A stretch of DNA of 64,000 nucleotides from Nitrospira sp. GTDB lineage: Bacteria; Nitrospirota; Nitrospiria; Nitrospirales; Nitrospiraceae. Positions 21,573-40,166 of the stretch are shown here, piece after piece (position 1 is the stretch's first letter; each line of letters begins with the position of its first letter). The stretch lies in NCBI GenBank assembly GCA_035968315.1, contig JAVYIN010000005.1:248001-312000 (forward strand). Direction: 5' to 3'. The notes beneath the pieces are model-generated. The model did no database searches. It saw only the letters and a list, made by a program, of their open reading frames with translations, and was not told the origin of the DNA. A program made the translations under genes and the position numbers.

Positions 21573-23903
21573 TCAAAATGTTCGTGTTATCGGGGCGCAG
21601 GGGGGGCCGGATATGCCGGCAATGGGCACGGTAAAGAAGATCCGGGTTCCCGATCCAGGCGCGCTTTCGACAGCAATCTCTCCTTTGTGCATGGCCACGA
21701 GGGTTTTGGTGATGAATAAGCCAAGCTGGGCTCCTTGAGAGGCCGGCATTGATGAGGGCACTTTAGAGAATTCATCGAAAATATGGGGCAGATGTTGCGG
21801 AGAAATCCCGCAGCCCGTATCGGCCACGCAGGTTTTGACCATGTCGTCGGCTGTGCGGGAAAAGGAGATGGTCACGGTTCCGCCAGGCGGAGTGAATTTG
21901 ATGGCATTTCCGATGAGGTTCCAGAGGATCTGTTCCAGTTTATCCCGATCACCGTAGACCTGTGGCAGTGTCGCATGGGCGTCGATGACCAGTGTCACCT
22001 GTTTTTCCGCCGCGACGGCTTGCAGGCTGTCTATGGCCGTGACCGCGATCTCCGCGATGCAGACGGAGTCCGGGTGCAGTACGTCTTTCTGTCTGTCCAA
22101 ACGGGACCAGTCCAGTAATTGATTGATGATGCGGGCGAGCCGGGCCACGTTGTGTTCGATGCGGGCGAGGTAGGTGGTCTGCTGGGGGGTCAATGGGCCG
22201 GTGACCCCGTCGAGCATGTTTTCCGCAAAGTTGCGGATCGCGGTCATGGGCGTGCGCAATTCATGAGACACCACCGATAAGAAGGTCGAGCGCCGCCGGT
22301 CGTGGGCCTGCAGTTGGTCGTTTGCCCGAGACAGTTCGTCGGTGCGTTCGCGAATGCGCTCTTCGAGGTGCTGGGTGAGCTCGGACAAGTGCATGTAGGC
22401 CCGCGTGTTATCGATGGCGGCGGCGACATGGCTGGCAATCGTCAGGAGAATCCGGAGATCGTCTTCGGTGCAGGCCTGCTGGCCGCGGTCTCCGGCCAGA
22501 TATCCCACAATGCCGTTCCGGCTTTGCAGCGGCACGGCAATAAAGGACGAGATGCCGGTGTCTTGGAGTAATGCCAGCACCGGCGGGTGGATCCGGCCGG
22601 TTTCGGATTCCAGGTGTTCCACGAGCACCGGTGTTCCATGCAGCAAGAGCGCGGCGGTGATGGAGCCGTCGTCGCGAATGGGAATCTCCAGGCGATAGGC
22701 GGATTCGGCGACGTCGGGCGAGACGCCGGTGACTCTGGCAATATAGGACGTCTCCCGGTCTTCGTGGCGAAGGCTCAGCACCATGCGCACAAAACCGAGA
22801 TTACCGACCAGCAATTGCAGCACGGTATCGAGGAGCACGTTCATGTTCAGTGTGCTGGCAATGGCCGCGCTGGCTTGATGCAGCGTGGTGAGCTGGCTGA
22901 CGTGCCGTGTAATGGTATGGAGGTTGGCGGTGATGGCCTGATTGCGTTCTTGCACCGAGCGGGCCATGTCGTTGAACAGGCAGGTCAATTGGCCTACTTC
23001 GTCATGCGTCGTTGCGGGCAAGTGCTCCGGGACGGCACCGGTGGACACTTGGCGGGCCATGTCGGCGAGCCGCCGCAGTGGCGTGGTAATTTTGGCCGTC
23101 AACATGTGGGCGCCGGCAATGCCGGCGACAATGATGAGGGCGGTCAAGGCAAAGACGTTTCCCATCATGGTGATGACTGACTGGCGGACATGTTTGTCGG
23201 TGAGGCCGATTTGAACGATGCCATAGATGGCCGGGGCGGCCGTCTCGCTCCGCGGAGCCGTCAGATTGTCGGGGTCGAGCGCAAAGGGAGGAAGGGGCAT
23301 CGCCGAGGGGCGGCGTATCGGCAGGGCGAAGTCATAGAGATTCTCCGAGAGGGCAGGGAACACGTCAAACCAGAGCGAGTGGCGCTCGGAAGATTGGGGC
23401 GCGAGCGTGCCTGGCGCCGTGAGCGGTGTGACCTGCGGAGTTGCGGCGTGTGCCTGTACGGCCCGGGCGGCGATATCGGCATCCGGGTAGAGGGGGAGCG
23501 TTGCGGATGGGTGCGAGCCTGTGGCGGAGGGATAGGTGTCCTTGCTCTGTTTGGCGAGAATGCGGCCCTGAGCGTTCGTGATAACGACATAGACGACTTC
23601 GTCGATGGAGGCGAGTCCATCGATGTATTGTTGCAAGGTAATGGGATCTTCCGCGATTAAGGCCGCAAAACGAAAATGATCGTTATGCGCGACGTTGGCC
23701 AGAAGGATGGTGCCGAGACGATGGAGATCCTCCATCATGGCGGCGCGTTTGGTTTCGACAAAATACCAGCTCAAGGTGGAGCAGGTGAGGACGAGGATGA
23801 GGCTGAAGAACAGCACGAACTTCGTGCGCAAGCTGATGAACGGGCTTGCGGGGGAGCCGGGCGGCGGGGATGCGTGGCGGAGAGGGGCGGGGTCAGGGTG
23901 CAT
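21573..23903 (-). CDS. Membrane sensor histidine kinase with HAMP and GAF domains
   Basis: A 776-aa kinase. TM helix at residues 26-48, a periplasmic sensor region of about 200 residues, second TM around 235-255, HAMP (about 265-320), GAF (about 345-490), coiled coil, HisKA with phospho-His in FLSVVSHELRTPMTAI, and HATPase_c with NLIGNAIKF, DTGCGIS and GLFITKTLV. It lies between the PF04392 binding protein and the NtrC-type regulator in one direction, so it is the likely cognate kinase: periplasmic ligand protein to kinase to sigma-54 activator. Confidence 0.93.
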   Translation of the reverse strand: MHPDPAPLRHASPPPGSPASPFISLRTKFVLFFSLILVLTCSTLSWYFVETKRAAMMEDLHRLGTILLANVAHNDHFRFAALIAEDPITLQQYIDGLASIDEVVYVVITNAQGRILAKQSKDTYPSATGSHPSATLPLYPDADIAARAVQAHAATPQVTPLTAPGTLAPQSSERHSLWFDVFPALSENLYDFALPIRRPSAMPLPPFALDPDNLTAPRSETAAPAIYGIVQIGLTDKHVRQSVITMMGNVFALTALIIVAGIAGAHMLTAKITTPLRRLADMARQVSTGAVPEHLPATTHDEVGQLTCLFNDMARSVQERNQAITANLHTITRHVSQLTTLHQASAAIASTLNMNVLLDTVLQLLVGNLGFVRMVLSLRHEDRETSYIARVTGVSPDVAESAYRLEIPIRDDGSITAALLLHGTPVLVEHLESETGRIHPPVLALLQDTGISSFIAVPLQSRNGIVGYLAGDRGQQACTEDDLRILLTIASHVAAAIDNTRAYMHLSELTQHLEERIRERTDELSRANDQLQAHDRRRSTFLSVVSHELRTPMTAIRNFAENMLDGVTGPLTPQQTTYLARIEHNVARLARIINQLLDWSRLDRQKDVLHPDSVCIAEIAVTAIDSLQAVAAEKQVTLVIDAHATLPQVYGDRDKLEQILWNLIGNAIKFTPPGGTVTISFSRTADDMVKTCVADTGCGISPQHLPHIFDEFSKVPSSMPASQGAQLGLFITKTLVAMHKGEIAVESAPGSGTRIFFTVPIAGISGPPCAPITRTF

Positions 23904-23914
23904 GGCGTCGCCTC

Positions 23915-24886
23915 CTAATAAGTGGCATCGATCAGGCGTTCGAGGTCGCCGGGAAAGGCGATGCCCAGGAAGTTGGCGGTCTTGTGATTCACTGTGATCG
24001 TCATGCGTTCGATCGGGACCGGCTTCGTCGAAAGTATTCGTTCTCCGTCGAGCAGACGTTTGGCCAGCTGCCCGGTTTCGCGGCCGACATCGCCGTAGGC
24101 AATCGAAATACTGAGCAGCGCCCCAAGCTTCGTCAATTCCGGCGAAAACCCGATCACCGGAATATGCCGCGCGAGGGCGGACTCAAGAATAAACCGAATC
24201 GACTCAGCGGTCAGGACGGTGGAGTCTGGCGTCAGCCAAAGGCCCTCGACTTCGGCGAGCAGCGCGCGCAGTTGCTGAGGGATGTCTTTCTCGCTGCCGA
24301 CGGGAAAGGATTCCAGTCGAAACCCGCTGGCGGCGGCCTGTAGGACGGCATCATTGATTCGAGCGGCGGATTTGTTGGACTCAAAGAGGACGCCGAGCCG
24401 CCGCAACGATGGCAGCAGGGTGTGGATGATTTTGAATTGTCGGTGGAGCGGAATTTCTAATTGCGTGCCGGTCATATTGGGCGCCGTGAGGCGGTGCTTG
24501 AGCGGGTCGAGGATCATCATATAGACGATGGGGATATCCGCAATTTCGTGCTTGGCGGCCAGCGCGGCTTTGATGCCGACGGCGAGGACCATCTGCGCGT
24601 CCGAAGCTCTGATTTTCTTGGCCAAGAGGAGGCCCAGCTCGGCATCATTGCGCAGATCGTATTCCACATAGGTTGCGGAGGCCGGAGCTGTGGCTTTGAA
24701 GCCTTCGATGGCCTGGGCGTAGGCCGGCAGGTCCGAGGACTTGAGGATTGCGATCTCGGCGGCCTGTGCCGGCGGAATGGCGAAGATGGAGGCGAGGAGT
24801 GCCAAGATGAGGGCGAGCAGATGCTGTCCGGCCGCGCCATGCCGGAGGTGAGAGAGGTGTGCTGTGCGGCATCCGTATATTGGCAT
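23915..24886 (-). CDS. Periplasmic ABC-type substrate-binding protein (PF04392)
   Basis: A 323-aa exported protein with signal peptide (ALILALLASIFAIPPAQA). The two-lobe binding fold resembles the TrpX/PF04392 family (IPIVYMMILDPLKH, then IPVIGFSPELTKLGALLSISIAYGDVGRETG). No ABC ATPase or permease lies nearby. The gene is 8 nt after the receiver-PAS gene and 11 nt before the kinase gene. The likely role is ligand sensing for the kinase rather than transport; that is inference from context. Confidence 0.85.
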   Translation of the reverse strand: MPIYGCRTAHLSHLRHGAAGQHLLALILALLASIFAIPPAQAAEIAILKSSDLPAYAQAIEGFKATAPASATYVEYDLRNDAELGLLLAKKIRASDAQMVLAVGIKAALAAKHEIADIPIVYMMILDPLKHRLTAPNMTGTQLEIPLHRQFKIIHTLLPSLRRLGVLFESNKSAARINDAVLQAAASGFRLESFPVGSEKDIPQQLRALLAEVEGLWLTPDSTVLTAESIRFILESALARHIPVIGFSPELTKLGALLSISIAYGDVGRETGQLAKRLLDGERILSTKPVPIERMTITVNHKTANFLGIAFPGDLERLIDATY

Positions 24887-24894
24887 GATGACGG

Positions 24895-26445
24895 TCAGCG
24901 GCCGGGCGGTGTGTGCGCTTGGACGGTGCCCACGATGCGAGAGGCTCGTCCCGTCTCGTCATGAATAATATGGCCGGACCATGCCAGCCACCGAAGGGTG
25001 CCGTCAGGGCGGCGGACTCGATGCTCGAAGGCGATTTCGCCCTGTGAGGTGCTGTCCGCCAGGCGGAGCGCGGCCAGGATCGAGGGCCGGTCGTCGGGAT
25101 GGATCCGCGCGAGAAAGTCTTGCCGGCTTATGAGGCCCGATCCGGCTGGGTCTCCGAGCAGGTCATGGGCGATCGGCGACCAGTAACAACGGTCTGTCCG
25201 GAGGTTCCAGTCCCAAATGCCGATGCGCGCGCTTCCGAGCGCGTGCTGAATCCGCTCCTCATTGGTTCTGAGATGGTCGCCGATTCGTTTGCGTTCGGTA
25301 ATGTCGGTGGAGATGCCGCAGACGGCGTAAGGCCCGCCGGTGTCGTCGCACAGCGGAAATTTGATGGAGATGTAGTGATGGAGTCCGTCCGGATGCGGGG
25401 CGGTCTCGTCGTATTCCGCCGGCCCATTGCGGTCCAAGACCTGGCGATCATTGGCGCTGAAGACCTCGGCGATCTTGGGGGGAAAGAGGTCGTGGTCGGT
25501 GCGTCCGGCAATCTGCCCGGCCGTCAGATGGAACAATTCCTGGAACCGCCGATTGGTCAGGATGTACCGGCCGTCCGCGCCTTTCACGTAAATGACCGCG
25601 GTGCTATTGTCGATAATATCTTTCAGCAACCGCTCGCTGCGGCGCAGCGTTTCTTCGATCTGCTTCCGCTGTGAAATGTCTCGAATGATGCCGCTGTAAA
25701 AATTGCCGCCGCCGGTTTTCCATGTGGCCAGCGAGAGTTCGATCGGAAATTCGGTGCCATCCTTCTTGATCCCTTGCAGCTCGACCGCCGATCCGATCAG
25801 ACGGCTCACCCCGGTTGTCTCGACGCGCGCCAGCCCGGCCAGATGCCGGTCTCGAAAGCGGACGGGCATCAGGATGGTAAGGGGCTGCCCAAGCAGCCCG
25901 TCGTGCGGGTAGCCGAACATCGTGGCCGCCGAGCGGTTGTGCGAGACGATGGTGCCGCGCCCGTCCGCAACGACGATGGCATCGCTGGCCGATTCCACCA
26001 GCGAGCGGAAGCGGTGTTCGCTTTCCGTCAAGAGATGCTCGGCCTGCTGCGCTTTCACCGCGAGTTCCTTGACCCCGATGGCGCGCCGGAGCGTTTGCCG
26101 AAGCTCCTCGCGGTGGTAGGGTTTGGTCAGATAGGCGTACGCGCCCCGTGACAGTGAGCCCACGGTTTTCTCCGTGGCCGTGCTGGCGGTCACGATGATG
26201 ACCGGCAAGTGCGGGTCCAGCTGCTGGATGGTGCCGAGGAGCGTCAGTCCATCGCCATCGGGCAGTGTGACGTCGAGCAAGACCGCATTAAACCGGTGGG
26301 CATGGAGGTGGGCGAGCGCTTGGGCGCAGGAGGTGGCGGTGTGGACCGCATACCCGTCATGAATGAGCAGGTCCTGCAGGCTGACGACAATGTCCGGATT
26401 GTCTTCAACGACGAGGACGGCATAGGAGGCGGTATCGACGGCCAT
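24895..26445 (-). CDS. Receiver-PAS-PAS-PAS protein without a kinase domain
   Basis: A 516-aa protein. Receiver domain at residues 8-125 with phospho-Asp in AVLLDVTLPDGDG and Lys in YLTKPYHRE, then three PAS domains at about 145-265, 275-395 and 400-510, each starting with an S/R-rich helix (e.g. FRSLVESASDAIVVADGRG). The protein stops after the third PAS with no HisKA, GGDEF or other output. It may act as a phospho-relay adaptor or signal integrator for the downstream kinase. It is first gene of the sensory operon. Confidence 0.9.
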   Translation of the reverse strand: MAVDTASYAVLVVEDNPDIVVSLQDLLIHDGYAVHTATSCAQALAHLHAHRFNAVLLDVTLPDGDGLTLLGTIQQLDPHLPVIIVTASTATEKTVGSLSRGAYAYLTKPYHREELRQTLRRAIGVKELAVKAQQAEHLLTESEHRFRSLVESASDAIVVADGRGTIVSHNRSAATMFGYPHDGLLGQPLTILMPVRFRDRHLAGLARVETTGVSRLIGSAVELQGIKKDGTEFPIELSLATWKTGGGNFYSGIIRDISQRKQIEETLRRSERLLKDIIDNSTAVIYVKGADGRYILTNRRFQELFHLTAGQIAGRTDHDLFPPKIAEVFSANDRQVLDRNGPAEYDETAPHPDGLHHYISIKFPLCDDTGGPYAVCGISTDITERKRIGDHLRTNEERIQHALGSARIGIWDWNLRTDRCYWSPIAHDLLGDPAGSGLISRQDFLARIHPDDRPSILAALRLADSTSQGEIAFEHRVRRPDGTLRWLAWSGHIIHDETGRASRIVGTVQAHTPPGR

Positions 26446-26522: not shown

Positions 26523-26536
26523 ACTGTCTAGACAGT
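26523..26536. promoter_or_regulatory. Perfect 14-bp palindrome, possible operator
   Basis: ACTGTCTAGACAGT overlaps the stop codon of the ribbon-helix-helix gene and lies 78 bp upstream of the receiver-PAS gene. Ribbon-helix-helix proteins usually bind such palindromes, so it could be the operator through which that protein controls the sensory operon. Only the symmetry is observed. Confidence 0.35.
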
Positions 26537-26914
26537 CCGTTCGCAAGGCGGATGCGGTTGAGGTATCGGCCTGCGACGGGGCCTTCCCGGTTTCAAGGGC
26601 GCAAGACGAGGAGGGAAGACTCCGCCGTTTGCCTGTTCCATTTCGGCCACGGCATCGTGCAGCGCATCGGTAATGACACGCGCCAGCGTGGCTCGTTCAG
26701 TCCAATAAATGGCATTTCGGAGGCGCTCGATCAGAATGGTGGGCACATTCACGGTGACACGTGAGGTGCCATGAGCCGTCAGAGAGGCGGGGGCACTTTT
26801 CACGGACAAGCGCCGCGCCGCCGTTGTCGGCTGACTATGACTATTGGGCCATAGGTCCTGGGGGGGAGGGGCGGTGTTGAGGGGGGTCGGATGCTTCGAG
26901 GTCTGTTGTGCCAT
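26528..26914 (-). CDS. Ribbon-helix-helix DNA-binding protein
   Basis: A 128-aa protein. The start at MAQQTSKHP has AAGGA 8 nt upstream. The first 55 residues are disordered and rich in Pro, Thr and Ser. A ribbon-helix-helix core follows: SRVTVNVPTILIERLRNAIY, then a second helix TERATLARVITDALHDAVAE. The tail is basic (KPGRPRRRP). Likely a CopG/Arc-type repressor. Its start lies inside the end of the small membrane protein gene (74-nt overlap), so they are one transcript. Confidence 0.7.
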   Translation of the reverse strand: MAQQTSKHPTPLNTAPPPQDLWPNSHSQPTTAARRLSVKSAPASLTAHGTSRVTVNVPTILIERLRNAIYWTERATLARVITDALHDAVAEMEQANGGVFPPRLAPLKPGRPRRRPIPQPHPPCERTV

Positions 26915-27032
26915 GTGCCGGTTCCTTTTGGATGATACGCCGATCGTCAAGGGTAATGGACAAGACCAGGAACCACACAACGCCCAGGATGCTGACCAAG
27001 GGGACCCAGATAATAAGGAATTCCAGTGTCAT
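26841..27032 (-). CDS. Small single-span membrane protein under a sigma-54 promoter
   Basis: A 63-residue protein starting MTLEFLIIWVPLVSILGVVW, one TM helix at residues 4-25, then a short charged tail (DDRRIIQKEP) rich in Pro. AGGAGAAG precedes the ATG. It overlaps the ribbon-helix-helix gene by 74 nt. It resembles the tiny membrane proteins at 19457 and 38650 in size and plan, and shares with them an upstream sigma-54 motif and box. Function unknown. Confidence 0.65.
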   Translation of the reverse strand: MTLEFLIIWVPLVSILGVVWFLVLSITLDDRRIIQKEPAHGTTDLEASDPPQHRPSPPGPMAQ

Positions 27033-27284: not shown

Positions 27285-28109
27285 CTAACGAGGATGCGAG
27301 GAGAGGGCTCGTAAATCCCATTCCGCGACGCCGTGGAGACCGACTTGTTTGAGCAGCGCCGCCCGCATGCGGCGGAGGGATTTATCTGTTGGGTGGTGTT
27401 CGATGAGCGAACAGAGGCAGGACATGGCATCGTACCAAAACCCGTTATGTGCATTCTCACTGACGCTGTGTGTCGTGCAGGTGAGATCCGGCCCTGCCTC
27501 CACCAGGCAGGCGTTGAACTCACAGCGCTCAATGACGCCGCCGGCGACGATATCTTGAGATGGAGAGTCGGGATTGCGGACAACGGACACATACCAGCGG
27601 TATTGCACGTCCGGTTCAAGGGAGAGCCCCAGCTCTTTCAGATTGATCGCCTGGATGCCGGCGGCTTTCGGAGAAGGCAGGGGAGCTTCGTAGACGGGTT
27701 GAATCTGGCGATTGTCAACCAGGGTGAACCGTACAGTATAGGCGGTCGGCTTGGAGAGGAACCAATTCAAGACGGGTGTCCGGCTGATGGTTAGTCCGAC
27801 ATGATCCGGGACAAGGGCCTGAATCTCCGGATCGCTCCCTTCCGTTCCGCGAAGGGAGCCTCCAACGCGTGCACGGGGAACCAGTTTGGGGGGCGGCGTA
27901 TAGATTGGTATGGAGGCATCGGAGCCGCTCTCGGAGGGGATTTCAGCGGGGAGATCGGCCGTCTGTCCGAACGAGGGAGAGAACGATAGGATGAGACCGG
28001 CACACAGCGCTCGCATCAAATATGGCAATGTGCGCCGCACAAGAGGCCTTGTTGCTCCACCGTCTGAATGACTCTCCATCGCGAATACCGTAGCATAAAA
28101 TGGTTTCAT
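27285..28109 (-). CDS. DUF928 secreted protein
   Basis: About 274 aa. A signal peptide (LCAGLILSFSPSFGQ) follows a variable N-terminus; ATG 28109, TTG 28121 and ATG 28079 are possible starts. The mature part fits DUF928: GRVGGSLRGTEG-like segment, LVPDHVGLTISRTPVLNWFL, a beta-sandwich with YRWYVSVV, and a helical C-terminus (WDLRALSSHPR). DUF928 proteins often accompany CHAT and TPS genes in cyanobacteria. It is last gene of the TPS operon, its start overlapping or abutting the CHAT stop. Role unknown. Confidence 0.8.
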   Translation of the reverse strand: MKPFYATVFAMESHSDGGATRPLVRRTLPYLMRALCAGLILSFSPSFGQTADLPAEIPSESGSDASIPIYTPPPKLVPRARVGGSLRGTEGSDPEIQALVPDHVGLTISRTPVLNWFLSKPTAYTVRFTLVDNRQIQPVYEAPLPSPKAAGIQAINLKELGLSLEPDVQYRWYVSVVRNPDSPSQDIVAGGVIERCEFNACLVEAGPDLTCTTHSVSENAHNGFWYDAMSCLCSLIEHHPTDKSLRRMRAALLKQVGLHGVAEWDLRALSSHPR

Positions 28110-28111
28110 AT

Positions 28112-30472
28112 TTATAGCCAATTGTTCAGCAAGAGGAATGCCGCCCAGTACGCCGGGTGGGCATACACGCGGTCCTTCAGCAGATGGCGCTGGGCTCGCT
28201 GCAGGGCCTCGGCCTTTGAGGCCGAAGGATTGTTGAGCTGCCGGTAGAATTCCGCAATGAGGGCGGTGGAGGCTTCGTCATTGATGAACCAGAGGGACGC
28301 CAGCGCGCTACGGGCTCCGGCTTTGATCGCCACGCCGGCGAGGCCCAAGGCGGCACGGTCGTCGCCGATGCCGGTTTGGCAGGCGCTCAGGGTTAGCAGT
28401 TCGAGCGGGTCTTGCCGGAAGCGCAGGAGCCCAACCAGGCGGTCCAACTGTGTCATGGTCAGTTTGCCGTCGTAAGTGAGCAGAAACGAGTCCGCAGGTT
28501 CAGGGGAAAAGTGTCCGTGGGTGGCAATGTGCAGCACCCCGTAGCGGCCTTCGCGTAATTCCGTTTCGAGGCGGGTAGCCAGAAAGTCATGATTTTCGAG
28601 GCGCTGCCCCTTGTAGAGTGATTCAATCGAAGCGAGTTCTTCCGCGACGTAAGGCAGGGCCGGAAAACCCTGCACGGAGACCGTCAACCCGGCCGCCAGG
28701 ATGCGTGTGCGTGTTCGGTCCAGCGGGTGGGGGTCGGTTAACGTCAATCCGGGGGTCGAGGCGACGGCGTACCGGTCGATGAGAAAGGCGGTTCCGTCGT
28801 GCAGCGCCGCCATCGGCACGGTTCTCAGCGCACGATCGGGCACGAAGACGAGCGTCGTAATGTGCAGGCGGTTCAAGTCGGCCTGGATTGGCCGTACGAG
28901 CCAGTCGTAGAGGTGCTGGGCATGAGGCAGATACTCATGCGTCGTCCGTTTTTCCAGCAGGCGGCGGAACGCTCTGATTTCCTGCGTGACCCGTTTGTCG
29001 TCGATGGGCACGAGGTAGCGCGTGAGTCCGGTTGGAAGACTGACCAGCAGTTCAATCCTGGTTGGGAAAAGGATCGGGTAGACGACCGCAGTGGACGGGG
29101 CGAGCCGGTCGAAGGGCATTGTGCGCGCCTGGAGCGCATCCACGCAGTCGTCACGAAAGTAGTCGCGAAGCTCGGCGGCCTTAGAGGCTTCGATGGCGTC
29201 CCGCGCGGCCAGGATGTCCTGCTCGATGCCGGGCGCGCCGGGGCCGCGCGAGGCGCGTTGGAGAAGCAGGTCCGCCAGTTCGAAAAAGAGCGGGCGGATC
29301 GAGTCCTGCTCGTCCGGCGGGTCGCCGGCGTGCGCCTGTGTGAGTTGTGGCCGGATGGGCTGCAGGGTGGCGACGGCGTGCCGGTAGGCATCGATCGCCT
29401 CGTCCAATTGGCCTGCCAGTCCCAATTCGCGTCCCAACTGCCATTCCCACCGATACAGCGATTCCGGCGCGTCCACCGACTGGGCGGCAAACCAGGCTTG
29501 TCTGGTGAGATGGATTGCGTCGTCCAGCCGGTGCTCTGTTTCGTACAGATGGCCCAGATAGCCGAGCGCATAGGAGAGCGTGCGGGTATCGCCGAGGGAC
29601 TTCGCAACCGTGGCCGATTCCTGAAGCGCCCCGGCGGCGCGCAGCAAGAGGGGCGATTGGATGTCTGGCAGCAGCGTCCGGAGCCGTGCGTACAAGCGTC
29701 CCACACGCACAAGCGCCTGGGCTTTGTCGTGGGATGGCGGCAGCAGGGTGAGTTGCTCAAGCGCCTGATCCGTCCATCGCCGGCTGTCGTCAGGACGGCC
29801 GAGCCGCAGGGCGGCGCGTGCGGCATTGATCCGTGCGTGGAGGGCCACCATTGGCGCCTGTCCGGCCTGGGCGAGGCGGATGGCGTCGGCAAAAGCGGCC
29901 AGCGCATCGGCCTCGTGTTGCTGAAGCACGGCAAGGATGCCTTGATCGTTCAGAATCGAGGCCATCAGCGAGGGAGAGGGCTGCTGGCCGGCCATGGTGT
30001 GGGCTTGGGCGAGCAGATCCGCCGCCATGTCCAGGTGGCGGGTCTCCAGATAGGCGCGTCCCAGGTGGGCCAGCACGGTGGCCTGCCAGACCCTGTCGGT
30101 CTGTTGTTGTGCCAGGGCGAGCGCGAGTTCCAGAGATTGGAGCGCCTGCTTCGTATGTCCGAGTGTCTGCGCGGCTTGCGCGGCGCCGAGGAGTGCCTGG
30201 CTTTGCAGGCGCACGGCGCCCTGCTCCCCGAATAACCGGGCGGCGTCTTTCCAGGCGGCGAGGGCCTGTTCGAAATCACCACGGTGAAAGGCCTCCGAGC
30301 CCTGGGTCATGAGCTGGTCAGGATGGTCTGCTGCGATTGCCAGGTTCAGGCCGGTGATCAGGAAGAGTCCACAGAGCAGCAGACGCAACAAGATCCGGCG
30401 GCCTCGTGCCACGCCCGTACGATGGGGGTTGAGGGGGAAGCCGCGCGGGAGAGACCGATCTCGATGGGGCAT
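28112..30472 (-). CDS. TPR-CHAT cysteine peptidase, exported
   Basis: A 786-aa protein. The N-terminus has a hydrophobic signal segment (RLLLCGLFLITGLNLAIAAD), then about ten TPR-like helical repeats (residues 60-420), then a C-terminal CHAT domain (about 480-786). The catalytic dyad appears intact: His652 in HIATHGHF and Cys698 in LTLSACQTGIGD. CHAT domains are caspase/separase-like peptidases. A signal peptide points to action in the periplasm or outside. It lies 12 nt after tpsB and overlaps or abuts DUF928. Substrate unknown; the co-encoded exoprotein is a candidate by context. Confidence 0.9.
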   Translation of the reverse strand: MPHRDRSLPRGFPLNPHRTGVARGRRILLRLLLCGLFLITGLNLAIAADHPDQLMTQGSEAFHRGDFEQALAAWKDAARLFGEQGAVRLQSQALLGAAQAAQTLGHTKQALQSLELALALAQQQTDRVWQATVLAHLGRAYLETRHLDMAADLLAQAHTMAGQQPSPSLMASILNDQGILAVLQQHEADALAAFADAIRLAQAGQAPMVALHARINAARAALRLGRPDDSRRWTDQALEQLTLLPPSHDKAQALVRVGRLYARLRTLLPDIQSPLLLRAAGALQESATVAKSLGDTRTLSYALGYLGHLYETEHRLDDAIHLTRQAWFAAQSVDAPESLYRWEWQLGRELGLAGQLDEAIDAYRHAVATLQPIRPQLTQAHAGDPPDEQDSIRPLFFELADLLLQRASRGPGAPGIEQDILAARDAIEASKAAELRDYFRDDCVDALQARTMPFDRLAPSTAVVYPILFPTRIELLVSLPTGLTRYLVPIDDKRVTQEIRAFRRLLEKRTTHEYLPHAQHLYDWLVRPIQADLNRLHITTLVFVPDRALRTVPMAALHDGTAFLIDRYAVASTPGLTLTDPHPLDRTRTRILAAGLTVSVQGFPALPYVAEELASIESLYKGQRLENHDFLATRLETELREGRYGVLHIATHGHFSPEPADSFLLTYDGKLTMTQLDRLVGLLRFRQDPLELLTLSACQTGIGDDRAALGLAGVAIKAGARSALASLWFINDEASTALIAEFYRQLNNPSASKAEALQRAQRHLLKDRVYAHPAYWAAFLLLNNWL

Positions 30473-30484
30473 GGGCGTTGTCCT

Positions 30485-32263
30485 TTATAAGACCTGTACA
30501 ACCATTTGCAGGTGGATGCCATGGTCTTGCAGATTGCCAGGCGGATGGGACACATGGTTGAGCGGATGCCCCCAATAGAGTTCGAATCGCGCGCGCTCTT
30601 GCGGCAGGAGAGTCCAGCGTAGGCCGAGCCCGACGCTGGCCAAGGTGTTGGGCTCGGCCGTGCTGCCCTTGGCATCCCATGCACGGCCCATATCGGCGAA
30701 TTGGGCGAATTGCAGCCGGGGCTCTCCGGATGGAAAGGCCAGCAGCGGGATGCGCGATTCGAGGGAGGCGAGGAACGCATTGTCGCGGATGAGGGTATTC
30801 TCCCGATACCCCCGTACGCTGAACCGTCCTCCGACCGGCACCTGTTCCAGCGGGAAGAGGCGGTCGTTCGAGAGTTGGAGGCTCATCTGTCCCAGTAGTT
30901 GCACGCCCCCCCAGTCATCGAGCCGCCGCAGGCCCTGGACCTGTCCTAACCAGGAGAAGAATTGCGAGTCGGGCAGGGGACCGGCATTATTTGTCGCGCC
31001 CAGCGCATCAAGGCCGATCGAAAAACGGGAACGCGCGGCCACCACGGCACTCGGCGTCCGATGCACATATTCTTGGATGAAGCGGAGCGCGCTGACCGTA
31101 TTGACCCCGGTATCCGACGAGCCGGGAATCAGATCGTTGGTGCCGACGCTCCAGGTGACTTTGTTGTACAAGCGTTCACCGGTCACGGCGACGGCGAACT
31201 CGTCGGTCAGGGTTTTATAGAGCGGCTGGCGGATGGTGACACCGATGATCTCCGCGTCAGACCGCACATCGAGGGACCGAAAGTTGTCGGCGACGACGAG
31301 AAAGTCGTTGCGCCGGTAGTACCCCGTCACGGTGGTGTCGTAGCGGGAGACCGGCAGCGTATAGGAGGTATCGATGATGGGATTGACGCCGCGAGACCGG
31401 CCGTAGGTGAAGGAAAAGAGATCGCCATGGCCGGTGAGGTTCTGATGCGCGACGGTGGCCAGTCCTCGTTCGGCGCCGACGACGGGCGTTTGATGGTTGT
31501 TCAGATCCAGCCAGGCTTTCCAGGGGCTCGCTTCCGTGACGCGCAGGTTCAAGATGCTTTCGCCGCGCCGGTCTCCGGGGCGGAGTTCGGCGTTGATGCG
31601 CTCGATCCGGCTATCTTGCTGCAAGAGTTGCAGCCGCTCTTGCAATGGGGCGATGGCAAACGGGGTGCCCGCGCCGAGTGCGACCCGATCACGCAGGTAG
31701 TCGGGGCGGAACCACTCGGTGCCCTCCACATCGATCCGTGCCAGCGCGCCTTCGACGATCTGGATCGTGATGGTGTTGAAGGTCACATCCTGATCGGGGA
31801 TGATCGCGCCTGAGGTGATATAGCCGTGGTTGACATAGAGGAGTGTCAACGCGAGGCGCAGCCGCTCCAGATCGTCTGTCGTGAGGGTGCGGCCCTTATA
31901 GGGGCTGGTGACTGCGTCGATCTCTGCGTCCGTGAAGACGGTGCTGCCGGTCACATGGATGTCATGGACAAAGACGCGGATCTGTCCCAACGGCTGCTTG
32001 AGATCGCCGTCGGGAGGGCGGGGAACCGGTGGCAGGACCGGACCGGGCGGCGGGCCGGGCGGCGGAAACTCTTTTTTCAGCGGTCCGGACGGTTCGCCGG
32101 AACGGCCGGTCGGGTCGAAGACCGGCGGTATGACTTGCGCGAAGAGCGGCGGCTGCGTCAGTGCGAGCAGCATAACGACCCCCAAGAAGCGTGCGAGGCG
32201 TGTTCCCGGCTGTGCCGGCACGCGCCGCATACGATCGGCCGCGTCGGAGCTTAAGCGCGGCAT
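30485..32263 (-). CDS. Two-partner secretion outer-membrane transporter (TpsB; ShlB/FhaC family)
   Basis: A 592-aa outer-membrane protein. Signal peptide (LGVVMLLALTQPPLFAQ), Pro-rich linker, two POTRA domains (about 90-165 and 170-245), then a 16-strand barrel (about 245-592) with the RGYRENTL-type motif of FhaC (GRFSVRGYRENTL). It exports the TpsA partner across the outer membrane. Its start overlaps the TpsA stop by 13 nt, and CHAT follows 12 nt downstream. Confidence 0.93.
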   Translation of the reverse strand: MPRLSSDAADRMRRVPAQPGTRLARFLGVVMLLALTQPPLFAQVIPPVFDPTGRSGEPSGPLKKEFPPPGPPPGPVLPPVPRPPDGDLKQPLGQIRVFVHDIHVTGSTVFTDAEIDAVTSPYKGRTLTTDDLERLRLALTLLYVNHGYITSGAIIPDQDVTFNTITIQIVEGALARIDVEGTEWFRPDYLRDRVALGAGTPFAIAPLQERLQLLQQDSRIERINAELRPGDRRGESILNLRVTEASPWKAWLDLNNHQTPVVGAERGLATVAHQNLTGHGDLFSFTYGRSRGVNPIIDTSYTLPVSRYDTTVTGYYRRNDFLVVADNFRSLDVRSDAEIIGVTIRQPLYKTLTDEFAVAVTGERLYNKVTWSVGTNDLIPGSSDTGVNTVSALRFIQEYVHRTPSAVVAARSRFSIGLDALGATNNAGPLPDSQFFSWLGQVQGLRRLDDWGGVQLLGQMSLQLSNDRLFPLEQVPVGGRFSVRGYRENTLIRDNAFLASLESRIPLLAFPSGEPRLQFAQFADMGRAWDAKGSTAEPNTLASVGLGLRWTLLPQERARFELYWGHPLNHVSHPPGNLQDHGIHLQMVVQVL

Positions 32264-35166
32264 CCGGTCAACCCATTCTCCGCGAAGCTCTGGGTCAGAA
32301 AGCCGGCCGGATTCATGCGGCGCAACGAGACCGATTCGTCGGCCGGCGTCGTGACGGTCTCACGTGATGGCACGGTCCGGGCGAATGGGCCGCTGTTCTC
32401 TCCGCCGGTTGCGAAGGGGCTCGGTGACCACCCGGCTGGTTCCGCCGGTAAATGGTCGCGTCCGGCGATGAGCAAGCTGCTGGCTTGGCTGTCCGCGAGG
32501 GCGGCGCACCGTCCCGTCCGCAGCGTCTGCGTTTGCCGCAACGAGGCGGGCAGGGACGAGACGGTGCCGCTCAGGCTCGACGTCGGCGACTGAATGTTCA
32601 CCGGGCCATCCAGGCCGAACTGTGATGAGGCATCGACCAGGCTTAGGGCGTCTTGCAGGTAGAGCTGGGAGTAGTTGATGGTGATGGCGCCCCCGTTGCC
32701 TTGCACCGCCTGGGCGAGAATCTGGCTGTTCCGCAGAATGACCACGTTCGGATCGATGAAAATATTGCCGCCGCCGCCGGCACCGCCGAGCACCGAAGTG
32801 CTGATGGTGCTGTCCGTCAGCCGGATGAGATCCGTCGCGCGGATGTCGATATTGCCGCCGCCAGCCTGCGCGGCCTCAGCTCGCACCGTGCTGTCTGTCA
32901 TGCGAAACGCTTGTCCCGCAGCGATGGCAATATTGCCGGCATTGCCGGGCCCGGCGCTGCTGGCTGAAATCGATGCGCCACCGCTCATGGTCACGGATTG
33001 TCCGGCGGTTACGGTAATATCGCCGCCTGCACCAGGCCCTTGAGTATCAGAGAGGACTTTGGTGCCCCGGTCCATCAACAAGACTTGCTTGCCGGCTGTG
33101 ATGGCGACTGACCCGGCTGTACCGGTCGATGTGCTCAGGCTTTCGGTGGTGATTATGGATCCACTCAAAAGAGAAATTGAGTCGGATGCGCTGAGTTGAA
33201 TCTGGCCGCCTTGGCCGGAAGATACGGTGCGGCTTGTGATTAAGCTTTGGCCGGACAGCGTGATCGATTCTCCTGTGAGGTTGATCGCCCCTCCGGTTCC
33301 GCTCTCAGTCGTGGAACTTCGAAGAACGGCGTGATCGTCAAGAGTGATACTCTTGAGTGCGGATAACTGGATGGGACCTGTATCAGCGCCGACTGATCTC
33401 GTTCGGCTGTTTATCTCAGCGCTTTGTCCGATAAGAATCGAGTCTATGGCGGTAATGTTCACGGTGCCACTGGCGGCCGTGTCAGATATCGTAAATAGTT
33501 GAGCGGCATCGGTAAGGCGAAAATTCTTTGCAGTGATTGAAATGTCGCCGCTTGACCCAAGCCCGGCCTGAGAAGTGCTGATGCGGCTTTGCGTGGGTTG
33601 GGTGAATTGTGAGGCCCCGGCAAGGGACACTGTGCCGGTCGAAGTTACAGCGATACTTCCAGCTGCACCCTGGCTTGTGCCGATCGTCTCAATAAATCCT
33701 CCTCCGGTAATCGTGAGGTTCTCGGCCGAAAGGGCGATATTCCCTGACTTTCCATCGGCTATGGTTAGGGTTTGGATTCCGCCTTGTTCTCCAAGGGAAA
33801 TCGAGGCGGCGTTGATTGTAATCTGCCCGCCATCGCCGGCACGGGCTACAACGTTTCCTCCCGTCGTGCTGCTCTGGATACTGCTGAAGCCTCCTAGGCC
33901 GTCGCCTCCAGTGACGGAGACAATCCCGGATGCTGTTATGTTGATGCTTCCCGCTTGGGCATCGCCGTCCGTTGAGGTTCCTAGGAGGGATCCTCCCGAC
34001 ACTTGCACATTCTGGGCGTTGATGGAGATATCACCGGAACGGCCTTGTCCAGTCCCTGCGGAAAAGATTGTGCTTGGCATCCCGATTGTATTATTGAGCG
34101 ACAGATCGCCGGTCAGGTTGATATCGATGGCGGTCGGCGCGCCGTCCACGTTCCCTTGGGTTGCTGAAAAAAGAAGGGCGCTGTCCATCACCAACTGTCC
34201 GCCTCGAATACGGATGGTGCCTCCTGCGCCTCCGGCTTCGAAGGCGTTATCGCTCGTGTCGAGGAAGGCGCCTTCCGAGAGCGTGATGGTTCCCATGGTC
34301 GAAAATGACTGGCTGTTGATGTTCGGGCCGGTCTGCAAATTGGGGAGGAGAATTTCGCCAGGCGAGGCCACGCTGGCCAGTCGGATTTCACCGGCTGGCG
34401 CTGCGAGCATGCTCGGTGTACCGGTGGCGGGATCGGATGTGATCGTAATATCTCCGCCAGCCAAGGTCATCGATTGGCTGACAGGAACGGAGAGCGCGCT
34501 GCCTAGAACGGTAATGGGAGCAGGGGCGGCATCCAGGAATCCAAAGGCGGCGGGCTCCAAGAATCCAAAACTCGCGATGGGCGACACGGAAAGCACGCTG
34601 TTTGAGAGGCTGTCGCTCGCCGGATTCGCGTAGAAGTTTGTGCTGTTCGTTCCGTCGAACAGGCGAATGTAGTTGGCGGTGGTGAAGGCGACCGATCCGC
34701 CGACATTCAAGCTGGCGGTTGGGCCGAAGACGATGCCGGCAGGGTTCATCAGAAACAAATTGACGGCGGCCCCGTTCGGGTTCACGAACTGGGTGGTTTG
34801 AATCGTCCCATAGATATTCGAGACATTTCCGCCTGTGACGCGGCCAAGGATGTTGGATGTTTGTAGCCCGCTGCTGTTGAGGAAGTTGGCGACATCCCCC
34901 GGTCCAATGATGAAGTCTCCAAAGCTATGTAACAGGTTCGGACCGCTGCCCGGTCTCGTGCCGCCGGTGATGTTGTAGAGATTTCCATTCGGTGTGATCG
35001 TGGTGTTGAGATTTCCTGCGCCATTCGTCGAGGTAATCGAGGTTGTGACTTGGGCTCGAAGGCTGTTTGTCGTGAACGAGAGAAAGGCCAAAATGGCAAG
35101 GATGAGGCCTATGCTTGAGTTTGGAGATAAGCGAGGAAGCTGATTCCGGCTAGTTGTGTCGTTCAT
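32251..35166 (-). CDS. TPS exoprotein (TpsA, filamentous-haemagglutinin-like)
   Basis: A 971-aa secreted protein. Signal peptide, then the TPS haemagglutination domain (residues about 40-290) with NPNGAAVNLFLMNPAGIVFG (the NPNG and NPAGI motifs). A long beta-helix follows, with repeats of the type GxIxITA and SGDISI up to about residue 870, and a C-terminus ending in one Cys-containing segment (RTGRCAALAD). It should be exported by the adjacent TpsB. The cyanobacterial-type architecture fits surface-exposed or released adhesin. RBS GGGGAG precedes the ATG. Its C-terminus may be processed by the neighbouring peptidases; not shown. Confidence 0.9.
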   Translation of the reverse strand: MNDTTSRNQLPRLSPNSSIGLILAILAFLSFTTNSLRAQVTTSITSTNGAGNLNTTITPNGNLYNITGGTRPGSGPNLLHSFGDFIIGPGDVANFLNSSGLQTSNILGRVTGGNVSNIYGTIQTTQFVNPNGAAVNLFLMNPAGIVFGPTASLNVGGSVAFTTANYIRLFDGTNSTNFYANPASDSLSNSVLSVSPIASFGFLEPAAFGFLDAAPAPITVLGSALSVPVSQSMTLAGGDITITSDPATGTPSMLAAPAGEIRLASVASPGEILLPNLQTGPNINSQSFSTMGTITLSEGAFLDTSDNAFEAGGAGGTIRIRGGQLVMDSALLFSATQGNVDGAPTAIDINLTGDLSLNNTIGMPSTIFSAGTGQGRSGDISINAQNVQVSGGSLLGTSTDGDAQAGSINITASGIVSVTGGDGLGGFSSIQSSTTGGNVVARAGDGGQITINAASISLGEQGGIQTLTIADGKSGNIALSAENLTITGGGFIETIGTSQGAAGSIAVTSTGTVSLAGASQFTQPTQSRISTSQAGLGSSGDISITAKNFRLTDAAQLFTISDTAASGTVNITAIDSILIGQSAEINSRTRSVGADTGPIQLSALKSITLDDHAVLRSSTTESGTGGAINLTGESITLSGQSLITSRTVSSGQGGQIQLSASDSISLLSGSIITTESLSTSTGTAGSVAITAGKQVLLMDRGTKVLSDTQGPGAGGDITVTAGQSVTMSGGASISASSAGPGNAGNIAIAAGQAFRMTDSTVRAEAAQAGGGNIDIRATDLIRLTDSTISTSVLGGAGGGGNIFIDPNVVILRNSQILAQAVQGNGGAITINYSQLYLQDALSLVDASSQFGLDGPVNIQSPTSSLSGTVSSLPASLRQTQTLRTGRCAALADSQASSLLIAGRDHLPAEPAGWSPSPFATGGENSGPFARTVPSRETVTTPADESVSLRRMNPAGFLTQSFAENGLTGCRA

Positions 35167-35228
35167 GATCGATTCTCCCCGCCCAAATCCGACCCCGCCA
35201 TTAGAACCTTTCCCCTGCGGTCCTCTGG

Positions 35229-35996
35229 TTACGGCTTCAAAAATCTTTCGGCATACCCGTCGAACACTCCGGTCTGGCCGAAGTTCGGAACGTTTGCAAT
35301 TGCGGCAGACTTCACTTCGACAAGCGATAAGGTGAGTTTGTCACCCGCGTATTTCTGATAGAACCAGAATTCTCCCTTCATTACACGGCTTCCGGCAAGA
35401 CCGGAACTCCAGGTTTCACTCGTCGCCAGATTGAAATTGCCATACGATGCCGGGATGGAGCAACACACGGACTTTTGCTGATATGTCGCGATCTCGTTGT
35501 CTCCTGTATTGTTGTCATTGACCCAGCCGGTGACCTTGAACCAGTCATCTTTAGCTGCATTGCTTCCCCGCGTCATCGAACCGTTGGCCGTTCGATCAAA
35601 TTGGACTTGAACTGGAGGGTTGGCGCTCGGATTGGCTGTCGGTGGTGCATCGAACTGTGCGAAAAATACGATGTCTCCGTTCACTGGCTCCGTGCTGGCC
35701 GTGATGAGCACATTTTCAACCCAGATCGAGTCATTGTTGCCGTCGGTCACTTTTGCCATTGCCGGATTGGCGGCACCCGGTTTTTTTTCAATGGTAATCC
35801 CACTATAGCTTTTAGCGGTTCCGTCGCAATTGCTGAGAACGACGTCGTTCGGGAAATCGGTGCAATTTCCGGCCGTGAGCTGTGTGCCCTGGATCACGAC
35901 GGTTAAACCGGTGGCGGCCTGTGATGGCACGGGCAAGATGACCGCAGTGGCCAGCAAGCACAGTGTGGCGAGCAGCAGCGTTGGTGTCTTCGTCAT
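35229..35996 (-). CDS. Secreted protein of unknown function in the TPS cluster
   Basis: A 255-aa protein with a clear signal peptide (LLATLCLLATAVILPVPSQA). The mature part is rich in Asn, Thr, Gly and Ser with beta-strand character, and carries a few Cys that could form disulfides (NCTDF, SNCDG, SVCCSI). RBS AGGAGGAG lies close to the ATG. No known domain is recognised. It lies 62 nt upstream of tpsA and about 100 nt downstream of the S8 gene, all same strand, so it may be cotranscribed with the export system. Confidence 0.75.
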   Translation of the reverse strand: MTKTPTLLLATLCLLATAVILPVPSQAATGLTVVIQGTQLTAGNCTDFPNDVVLSNCDGTAKSYSGITIEKKPGAANPAMAKVTDGNNDSIWVENVLITASTEPVNGDIVFFAQFDAPPTANPSANPPVQVQFDRTANGSMTRGSNAAKDDWFKVTGWVNDNNTGDNEIATYQQKSVCCSIPASYGNFNLATSETWSSGLAGSRVMKGEFWFYQKYAGDKLTLSLVEVKSAAIANVPNFGQTGVFDGYAERFLKP

Positions 35997-36093
35997 GTTC
36001 TCCTCCTGTGGGGGGTGAGAATATTGGGGTAGCGGACATCCCGGCTCCCCGGATCACAATACCTTAGATAATTCCGACGAACCTATTGCCCAT

Positions 36094-37740
36094 CTATGGG
36101 CTGCCTCCTGTGCAACGCTTGTATGCCTCTTGCAGCGCCCTATCTACACTGATGCGGCCGTATCCTGTTTCTTGATCCCAGAGGTAGGGATAAGGGGTGC
36201 CCGTGGGATCATTGTGATTGTATAGATAGGGAGGTGCAGGCAATGGCGTTACGGTGCTTTCAATAATGTCGCGCACGTCCCGGCTTGTGTAGGACTTCCC
36301 GGTACTCTCATAGACGCTGATGACCAGAGCGGCCAGCGCCGCTACGTGGGGGGTCGCCGAAGAGGTTCCCCAGAAATCCATTGTGTAATCGCCATCGGCA
36401 CTTCCCGAGTCGTTGTTTTGGGTGGTGATGATATGGTTCCCGGGAGCCACCACGGAGAGTCCCGTGCCGTAATTCGATCCCCACCCGGTTCCCCACACGG
36501 TTTCGTCGCAGCGCTTCTCGGTATTATTGCCATCGAGGCTGAATGCACCGCACGCGATGACCGATGGATCGGATGCGGGGTAGGCAATCGAGGAACCGTT
36601 GGTATTCCCTGTCGCAGCACAGATCACAATGTCTTGGCTGGACGCCTTTCTGATGGCGTCTCTCACGCTCGGGCTTTCGAATCCATTGTCCGCCAAGCTT
36701 ATGCTGATCACATGGGCGCGCTGATTCGTCGCATGCTCAATGGCGATGGCCAATTCCTGTGATGTTTCTGTCTGGAGCCGAATGGGCATGATCGCGCAAT
36801 TCGGAGCCAGCCCTGCAACGCAATGGTCTTTCCATTCGGCCGCAATGATGCCCGCGCAATAGGTTCCATGCGAGCTGTTGACGGCCTGGCCTCCCGGGAC
36901 GATGCTGGAGCCTGAAACTGTTGCGCCCGTTGTTGTATAAGCAGCCTGTAGGCTCGGGTGTGTGAGATCGCAGCCCCGGTCGATCACGGCTACGACTACT
37001 GTGCGGTGTCCGGTTGTAATACCCCAGCCTTTTTGAGCGCCGATCTGTGTTAAATTCCATTGCTGCTCATAGAGACGTCCGGTCGGGGCGTGCTGGCCGC
37101 CGGATGCGATGGAATCCAATAGAGGCATATAATCAAAATCGACGAACTCGACGGAATCCCGTGCGTTCTCCTGGAGGTGTTTGTTTAGGTCGTAGGCACT
37201 GTTCTTTTTTGGCTGTTTAAGTTGATAAGCTCGAAACGCACACGCGGCTTCTTGTCCAGACACTTCTTCCAGGCCTAAGCGGCGCATCTTTATGGTAAGA
37301 GCCTCTAGGCTATTTGCTATCACCACCGTTGCTTGTTGAGCGGGCTTGATGACGAGCGTATTGGGTAGGGGACAGAGCAGCCCTTTTCGTCCCGTTGTCT
37401 CCGGCAACCGATAAACCGGGCCGATCCATTCCAGTTGTGTTTGGCTAGTTCTAGAGCCGAGCGCGTTCCAAATTCGCTGATCGACCGGCTTGTTGCCGGG
37501 CGTCCGAACCCAAAAGCGCTGGTCGGTGTGGTGGACGCGTTCCCCCGGAAGGAACGCAGCACGATCGGATTGGTCCGGTGAGTCTTCGAGGATGAGCCCG
37601 CTTCCTTGCAGCAGATTCTTAACCGTGGCACATGTTTGAGGGCGTTTGAAGCCGAGCAACAAGCGAGAGCGGTCGAGTTCCATTATCCGGCCAGATCCAT
37701 GCAGCAGCTGCTGTGGAAAAGTAAGGGGAGGAGTGAGCAT
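36094..37740 (-). CDS. S8 family (subtilisin-like) serine peptidase without a signal peptide
   Basis: A 548-aa protein. An N-terminal region of about 240 residues without a visible signal peptide precedes an S8 catalytic domain. The catalytic triad is visible: Asp254 (VVVAVIDRG), His291 (NSSHGTYCAG) and Ser460 (WGTSSATPHVAA), with the oxyanion Asn379 (AATGNT). The N-terminal part may be a propeptide or regulatory domain. No leader means cytoplasmic location or export by another route. First gene of the likely TPS/CHAT cluster. The start is uncertain (MELDRSRLLL at 37683 is possible); a hairpin sits just before the ATG. Confidence 0.88.
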   Translation of the reverse strand: MLTPPLTFPQQLLHGSGRIMELDRSRLLLGFKRPQTCATVKNLLQGSGLILEDSPDQSDRAAFLPGERVHHTDQRFWVRTPGNKPVDQRIWNALGSRTSQTQLEWIGPVYRLPETTGRKGLLCPLPNTLVIKPAQQATVVIANSLEALTIKMRRLGLEEVSGQEAACAFRAYQLKQPKKNSAYDLNKHLQENARDSVEFVDFDYMPLLDSIASGGQHAPTGRLYEQQWNLTQIGAQKGWGITTGHRTVVVAVIDRGCDLTHPSLQAAYTTTGATVSGSSIVPGGQAVNSSHGTYCAGIIAAEWKDHCVAGLAPNCAIMPIRLQTETSQELAIAIEHATNQRAHVISISLADNGFESPSVRDAIRKASSQDIVICAATGNTNGSSIAYPASDPSVIACGAFSLDGNNTEKRCDETVWGTGWGSNYGTGLSVVAPGNHIITTQNNDSGSADGDYTMDFWGTSSATPHVAALAALVISVYESTGKSYTSRDVRDIIESTVTPLPAPPYLYNHNDPTGTPYPYLWDQETGYGRISVDRALQEAYKRCTGGSP

Positions 37741-37748
37741 TTGAGCCT

Positions 37749-37769
37749 GAGAGCCATTCCGTGGCTCTC
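37749..37769 (-). promoter_or_regulatory. Leader hairpin overlapping a Shine-Dalgarno-like stretch
   Basis: An 8-bp perfect stem GAGAGCCA/TGGCTCTC with a 5-nt loop, beginning 8 bases before the S8 peptidase ATG. The GGAGGAG motif (37767-37773) partly overlaps the stem, so folding could hide or reposition it. This may tune translation of the protease. Confidence 0.4.
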
Positions 37770-38006
37770 CTCCATTTGTCGTCAGCCGATCTGTCGTGGA
37801 CCCTGCAGCCTGTCAGATATGGTGCCTAACTAGGCCTTTTTCGCAATATTCGCAATAACCCTTTATGGTTATCGGGGAGGGTTCTCCAGCTATGTGAGGC
37901 TATGCGCATATTGTGGTAATTTCCGTATATTCTCTTCTGCAAACGCCTTTAGATATCCCAGCAATTTCCGATAGAGAAGCAACGGCTTTTCTTCGGGAGT
38001 GGGCTG

Positions 38007-38408
38007 ATGGTGGATTTGACGCAACGGTCATGCTGGATCCTGTGTTTGGCCTCAATGCTAGCCGGCTGCTTTCAGACGGGCCTGGGCGATAAGTCCTCTG
38101 CAGGCAAAGCCTTTTACGTCTCCTCCTCGATCATTGATTCTGCCCCCGGTCTTCCGATCGTGCCTCTTGTCTCTTCTCGGTTGCCAGCTGGTGTGTCCGT
38201 TCGTTGGCTGTCACTGGATGTTCTCCCCCCTGCGGCACATGAACCGGTATGGCCTTCGATAACTCTGGTGCAGCGCCGTGACGGCGGGGTTGTCCTCCGT
38301 GCAAAGAATGCATCCGCTTCGATGCTGCAGGGGCTCGATCCGTTTCAGCTTGATCCCGCCGTGCTTCCGTTTGTATTGCCCACCTGCTCCGTTCATATTG
38401 TGCCTTGA
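38007..38408 (+). CDS. Putative lipoprotein of unknown function
   Basis: A 133-residue protein with a lipoprotein signal peptide (lipobox LAGC, Cys21). The mature part is Pro-, Ser- and Val-rich with no known domain; it ends SVHIVP. GGGAG lies upstream of the ATG. Divergent from the S8/TPS cluster, so it may share a control region with it. The 265-base gap before it holds no other gene; an ATAACC/GGTTAT hairpin is the only structure noted. Confidence 0.6.
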   Translation: MVDLTQRSCWILCLASMLAGCFQTGLGDKSSAGKAFYVSSSIIDSAPGLPIVPLVSSRLPAGVSVRWLSLDVLPPAAHEPVWPSITLVQRRDGGVVLRAKNASASMLQGLDPFQLDPAVLPFVLPTCSVHIVP

Positions 38409-39861: not shown

Positions 39862-40166
39862 CGCGGTTCTGTCGTGCGGTGAAGAGGGCGGGCGTCAAAG
39901 AATCCTGGCTCAGTCAGGAGTTCTTTCATGCGAGGGAGGGGGCGAGTCGGAGCATCGAGCGCCGCCTGAAACTCAGCCCATTGTGCTTTGCTCAGGAGGA
40001 AGGTGCGACGATCTGCCAGGGTTTCATCAGCGTGCGCGAGCGCACTTTCACGGACAAAGTCACTCACTGATCGACTGGAAACGGAGGCCGCCGCTTCCAG
40101 TATCCGCTTATCTGAGGCACTCAGCCGAAGATCCAGTTTTTCGCTTCGAATAGCACGGACTGTCAT
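39858..40166 (-). CDS. DUF1778 antitoxin (TacA-like)
   Basis: A 102-aa protein with an N-terminal ribbon-helix-helix (EKLDLRLSASDKRILEAAAS, then RSVSDFVRESALAHAD) and a C-terminal toxin-neutralising tail (FDARPLHRTTEPR). It should bind the toxin and repress the operon. A pair of 11-bp direct repeats 49 bp upstream is a likely operator. Confidence 0.88.
   Translation of the reverse strand: MTVRAIRSEKLDLRLSASDKRILEAAASVSSRSVSDFVRESALAHADETLADRRTFLLSKAQWAEFQAALDAPTRPLPRMKELLTEPGFFDARPLHRTTEPR

Follow-up and report, generated by a model that had tools for sequence, protein, structure and literature searches.

What do a two-partner secretion (TPS) pair, a peptidase of the caspase-related CHAT family, a DUF928 protein and a subtilisin-like S8 peptidase do in one bacterial gene cluster? 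The question is raised by a locus of Nitrospira sp. (GCA_035968315.1, contig JAVYIN010000005.1, positions 248,001 to 312,000), a stretch of 64,000 nucleotides that was analysed as a whole and is called the window below. The original prediction placed six minus-strand genes in close order within it, encoding an S8 peptidase, a secreted protein, a TPS exoprotein (TpsA), its transporter (TpsB), an exported CHAT peptidase with tetratricopeptide repeats (TPR-CHAT) and a DUF928 protein, and these open reading frames are present, with Pfam assignments that agree. The cluster is real, and it is a variant of two-partner secretion whose core is widespread and which is not described as a system in the literature searched. 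That a fixed gene set travels with an exchangeable protease module points to a dedicated system, in which a surface protein would be displayed and released. The features concerned are the following (window coordinates).

36094..37740, minus strand: S8 subtilisin-like peptidase, 548 aa, catalytic Asp254/His291/Ser460, with a long N-terminal region (residues 1-240)
35229..35996, minus strand: small secreted protein, 255 aa, predicted jelly-roll/CBM-like beta sandwich
32251..35166, minus strand: TpsA exoprotein, 971 aa, with TPS domain (Pfam)
32254..32508, minus strand: C-terminal signature of TpsA, Cys887/Ser896/Arg903/Pro910/Cys969 (alignment of TpsAs)
30485..32263, minus strand: TpsB transporter, POTRA_2 and ShlB barrel (Pfam)
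28112..30472, minus strand: exported TPR-CHAT cysteine peptidase, His652/Cys698 (Pfam, alignment, hydropathy)
27285..28121, minus strand: DUF928 protein, exported, predicted Ig-like sandwich and TPR-like helices, MtxA-like (Pfam, structure model)

Specifically, Pfam assigns the S8 peptidase to PF00082 (E 2e-39), the TPS domain to PF05860 (2e-37), the CHAT domain, found together with TPR repeats, to PF12770 (3e-57) and the DUF928 protein to PF06051 (1e-34), while no Pfam family matched the 255-aa secreted protein. TpsB, whose gene adjoins tpsA, matches POTRA_2 (PF08479, E 8e-20) and ShlB (PF03865, E 5e-29); a TPS-domain exoprotein beside such a transporter is the gene pair that two-partner secretion requires, and secretion of TpsA by this route is predicted. 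The genes tpsA and tpsB overlap by 13 nt and those for CHAT and DUF928 by 10 nt, and a promoter scan was uninformative. Judged by hydropathy and not by a trained predictor, five of the six proteins carry a hydrophobic export signal, namely TpsA, TpsB, CHAT, DUF928 and the secreted protein. S8, TPS, CHAT and DUF928 each have a single match in the genome, always inside the cluster, and because the sole S8 of the genome lies here, this peptidase is tied to the cluster beyond mere proximity. The catalytic residues that had been read as intact are indeed invariant among the relatives aligned, in 5/5 sequences for Asp254, His291 and Ser460 of S8 and in 18/18 for His652 and Cys698 of CHAT. CHAT is the catalytic domain found in the exported peptidase (the Pfam scan gave no match to C93, the LapG family), and domain and His/Cys pair together predict a proteolytic cysteine peptidase.

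The order TpsA-TpsB-CHAT-DUF928 is kept across the genus in 40 loci from relatives (labelled L plus a number where one has to be named), a real and strong synteny that extends in part to cyanobacteria. Downstream of the core, most of these loci encode a histidine kinase along with a PF04392 binding protein, and often a response-regulator/PAS protein as well. In 147 genomes of relatives, CHAT and DUF928 are both present in 70, only one of them in 5 (2 and 3) and neither in 72, and CHAT is accompanied by TPS in 63; as these genomes are related to each other, Fisher p values for the co-occurrence are not independent evidence. The synteny holds for the core and not for S8, which lies outside it; the order S8, secreted protein, tpsA recurs in four other Nitrospira (L073, L074, L089 and L095), a recurrence that rules out S8 as a lone lineage-specific insertion. 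The cyanobacterial neighbourhoods named in the original prediction were also seen, on plasmids of Pseudanabaena and Planktothrix, with TpsB, CHASE2, TpsA, CHAT and DUF928 as neighbours; further cyanobacterial CHATs occur without TPS. No paper on CHAT with TPS, or on CHAT with DUF928, was found in the literature searched. In a second, paralogous TPS-CHAT system of Nitrospira (L052, L053, L054, L055, L056 and L123), CHAT and DUF928 are separated by a CHASE2-adenylate cyclase, and in some of these loci the upstream protein has SpaA-like and C-type lectin domains.

The exoproteins linked to CHAT share a characteristic ending, Cys ... Ser-Ser-Phe ... Gly-Arg-Asp-x-Leu-Pro-x-x-Pro-Gly ... Cys, with the last Cys near the end of the protein and about 82 residues (mode 82-83) between the two. 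In 101 TpsA rows chosen by a C-terminal model, Cys887 and Ser896 are conserved in 101/101, Arg903 in 86%, Pro910 in 98% and Cys969 in 99/101, two cyanobacterial TpsAs being included. When the proteins are chosen by their N-terminal domain, the terminal Cys is found in 81 of 87 unique TpsAs; all 18 TpsAs from loci of the same order that are not linked to CHAT lack it, three of these TpsAs being cut by a contig end. As a separate observation, a distinct family of CHAT-unlinked TpsAs in Nitrospira (L172-L186, about 1400-1700 aa) has a conserved KRGVVIQVDVKPQ-like tail.

Upstream of tpsA lies a slot with exchangeable content. Where the window has S8, a reprolysin-like zincin is found in L044, L048 and L079 (two tested, both above the Pfam cut-off), another HExxH protein in L037 (N. 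moscoviensis; below the cut-off), and a C39-like protein with its own exported partner in 13 loci, according to a model built in this analysis (three were tested by Pfam, one above the cut-off and two below). Proteases of these types occupy 22 of the roughly 46 loci in which the slot can be read at least in part, and because the reading is often partial, a missing protease in the remaining loci is partly a matter of ignorance. In further loci, the place is taken by a lipoprotein and a Cys-rich exported protein. S8 is accordingly part of a swappable accessory module, not of the core.

This exchange can be followed in pairs of close relatives. Between L105 and L109, a stretch of 9.2 kb that starts inside tpsA has 96% identity, and before that point the two loci diverge: identity is 99% for CHAT, 99% for TpsB, 100% for DUF928 and 98% for the last 120 residues of TpsA, versus 62% for its first 340 residues and 44% for its middle. 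The same trend of a variable TpsA front and a near-constant core is found in L050/L096, L046/L091 and L038/L045. In close relatives, module and TpsA front are thus replaced together, against a constant background. As TpsA is variable at its front and constant at its end, it is most likely the end, besides the TPS domain, that is read by the constant machinery. Mapped on the CHAT tree, the module types require 21 changes, although 6 would be enough; the figure is rough because slots with mixed or unreadable content form an 'other' class among the labels. Full agreement of module and TPS-domain trees was not upheld, the result being mixed (10 changes versus 12 on the CHAT tree, with C39 improving from 9 to 5 and S8 worsening from 3 to 5), and module type and TPS-domain type match in part only. 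In L045, L047, L105, L108, L109 and L115 the locus contains tandem or partial copies of tpsA, from which recombination might draw. Loci with and without S8 (L089:1738-1945, L100, L074, L073, L095 and L094) share a conserved leader upstream of the module, at most about 200 nt long, that may be a regulatory region.

As originally predicted, the S8 peptidase of the window has no signal peptide by hydropathy, and its homologues in L073 and L074 likewise have none; those of L089 and L095 start with twin-arginine-like leaders. No convincing export signal hidden in other frames upstream of S8 was found. A second frame overlapping its start (37670-37760, minus strand) encodes MALRLKCSLLPLLFHSSCC..., by chance or as a lost signal peptide. 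The family of the secreted protein lies directly upstream of tpsA and on the same strand in 23/23 matches (search within the fetched loci). Its model resembles CBM and lectin jelly rolls (best Z 8.3), for which reason a role as protease inhibitor was dropped; the jelly roll being a common arrangement, no function is assigned.

The surroundings of the cluster contain the following features.

38007..38408, plus strand: divergent lipoprotein, 133 aa, lipobox LAGC (sequence)
26528..26980, minus strand: small conserved gene downstream of the cluster, without Pfam family (Pfam, synteny)
24895..26445, minus strand: response-regulator/PAS protein, downstream, syntenic (Pfam, relatives' loci)
23915..24886, minus strand: periplasmic ABC-type substrate-binding protein, PF04392, downstream, syntenic (Pfam, relatives' loci)
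21573..23903, minus strand: membrane histidine kinase, HAMP-GAF-HisKA, downstream, syntenic (Pfam, relatives' loci)
19983..21449, minus strand: sigma-54 response regulator adjoining the histidine kinase

The divergent lipoprotein gene had been noted at the outset, and its relatives in L033, L034, L035 and L089 are likewise placed upstream of the module in divergent orientation. No Cas gene was found among the neighbours scanned (about 17.9-41.4 kb of the window).

How might these parts work together? The reading preferred here, with a probability of roughly 45%, is a display-and-release system for a two-partner-secreted surface protein, in which an anchored TpsA is released by the periplasmic CHAT. 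TpsB would export TpsA, and the C-terminal domain of the latter, with its Cys pair and the Ser, Arg and Pro between, would remain in the periplasm as a disulfide-closed anchor. The TPR-CHAT, also periplasmic, would recognise this constant domain and cut there, thus releasing or maturing the exoprotein. The proposal that CHAT acts on the end of TpsA is made by analogy, as a disulfide at the C-terminus holds HMW-type TpsAs on the cell, and CdrA is released when periplasmic LapG cuts its tail (PMC5422565, PMC4873976). Proteolysis of the exoprotein by CHAT is plausible, with the conserved C-terminus as the candidate target; the scissile bond is left unnamed because the TPR-CHATs of Craspase cut at nonconserved sites (PMC11106740).

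On DUF928 there is almost nothing in the literature searched. Its structure model (predicted local distance difference test, pLDDT, 81) combines an Ig-like sandwich with five helices, and the best solved match is the C-terminal domain of MtxA (Foldseek E 2.5e-5), with a structural alignment of Z 10.1 over 161 residues (root-mean-square deviation 4.9, 12% identity; next best Z 6.4). The mtxA gene precedes a gene for a CHASE2-adenylate cyclase (PMC4439547), and such a cyclase is found near DUF928 in the paralogous loci (CHAT-CHASE2 cyclase-DUF928), not in this window. This fold and these neighbours suggest that DUF928 may be a periplasmic adaptor joining CHAT to a sensor, which would be the substrate-binding protein and histidine kinase here and the CHASE2-adenylate cyclase in the paralogous loci. 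The upstream module, an exported protein plus a protease, is exchanged together with the TpsA front and probably serves the particular exoprotein or its target; S8 may be a processing enzyme for its own exoprotein or have a target outside. A more general version, put forward tentatively, is modular display with caspase-like release, in which a constant chassis (TpsA anchor domain, TpsB, periplasmic CHAT, DUF928 and sensor) would carry interchangeable fronts with matching protease modules.

Several points weigh against display and release. Nine CHAT-bearing relatives have no detected TPS domain, many of them being fragmented or incomplete assemblies. The CHAT-unlinked control TpsAs are also distant TpsAs, so that the signature may reflect lineage ancestry, and the Cys spacing, with its mode of 82-83, is far above that of HxuA (6), which makes the anchor analogy loose. 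Moreover, a cut within the disulfide loop would not alone part the two pieces. The role given to TpsA could also be shifted to the module, as in a periplasmic protease cascade in which CHAT acts on an S8, zincin or C39-like zymogen or on the secreted partner, and TpsA is the platform or the target of the activated protease. Unrelated protease families do recur in one slot, and the TPR-CHAT of Craspase cleaves a partner protein (PMC11106740), but CHAT is conserved although about half of the readable loci have no recognised protease there, and a conserved CHAT site in the modules is improbable because they change while CHAT stays near-identical; overall, such a cascade is unlikely. Antagonism or self-recognition, with variable TpsA fronts and proteases as effectors or recognition parts against other cells or phages and the core as their chassis, is less likely still. 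It is consistent with the strong variation of front and module over a constant core and with a lectin/CBM-like secreted protein whose paralogous version carries a C-type lectin domain, but no toxin or immunity gene was recognised, and PADLOC gave generic matches only (TPR, subtilase), on which a reading as a defence system was rejected.

The original prediction had compared the cluster with the action of SphB1 on FhaB, and S8 might in this way mature TpsA at the cell surface. SphB1 does mature FHA (PMC5422565), S8 adjoins the tpsA region in five Nitrospira and two of its homologues have the twin-arginine-like leaders, but the comparison fits poorly: most relatives with the same core have no S8 in the slot, and S8 itself lies outside that core, lacks a signal peptide in its own genome, L073 and L074, and has PF00082 as its only domain in the Pfam scan, without the autotransporter domain of SphB1-type subtilisins. 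As a general rule S8-specific maturation is improbable because the slot holds unrelated proteases in other Nitrospira, and for this locus it is very unlikely. The lowest probability goes to chance, by which S8 and the secreted protein would be mere neighbours in a recombination hotspot; the highly variable slot agrees with this, but the position of the genome's only S8, the order shared with four other genomes and the unbroken placement of the secreted family upstream of tpsA in the fetched loci do not.

Apart from these questions, a GNAT acetyltransferase gene adjoins a TacA1-like antitoxin gene next to the cluster (window 39367-40166), probably as a type II toxin-antitoxin pair. Many Nitrospira genomes carry between their genes a dispersed repeat of roughly 130 nt, with identities of up to 91% (L073:1116-1245, some 20 other places and window 58511-58630).

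According to a 2017 review, genes for TpsA maturation proteases appear to lie outside TPS operons (PMC5422565). In contrast, the TPS exoprotein of this cluster is tied to a protease family of caspase kinship; it has a conserved domain as candidate substrate, and a second protease beside it is exchangeable. This offers a testable function for extracytoplasmic CHAT proteins and for DUF928, and it opens a way into the surface biology of Nitrospira as nitrifiers.

Among known systems, CdrA-LapG of Pseudomonas aeruginosa would be a closer functional analogue than SphB1, as a TpsA adhesin with a periplasmic C-terminal tail is released there by a signal-controlled periplasmic protease (PMC5422565), whereas the protease here is of the CHAT family and encoded in the tps operon with DUF928. 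In FHA and SphB1, too, a TPS exoprotein is the substrate or neighbour of a subtilisin, but SphB1 is a surface autotransporter encoded elsewhere, and the window S8 is neither. The anchored TpsAs of the HMW1/HxuA type also have two Cys near the C-terminus, without the wide spacing (about 82 residues versus 6), the distinct signature and the linkage to CHAT and DUF928 found here. Csx29 of Craspase shares TPR and a CHAT cysteine peptidase, whereas the present CHAT is exported, linked to TPS and without a Cas partner among the neighbours scanned. MtxA of Magnetospirillum (PDB 4z29) has the Ig-like and TPR fold predicted for DUF928 and adjoins a CHASE2-cyclase, but it is only 12% identical in the structural alignment and has no known TPS link. 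The cyanobacterial TPS-CHAT-CHASE2-DUF928 clusters share the core families and the TpsA C-terminal signature; they differ in a CHASE2 protein that replaces the substrate-binding protein and kinase, in a variable gene order and in having no S8 module in the stretches seen. Finally, contact-dependent toxins are polymorphic at the C-terminal side, whereas the chassis proposed for Nitrospira would be polymorphic at the N-terminal side.

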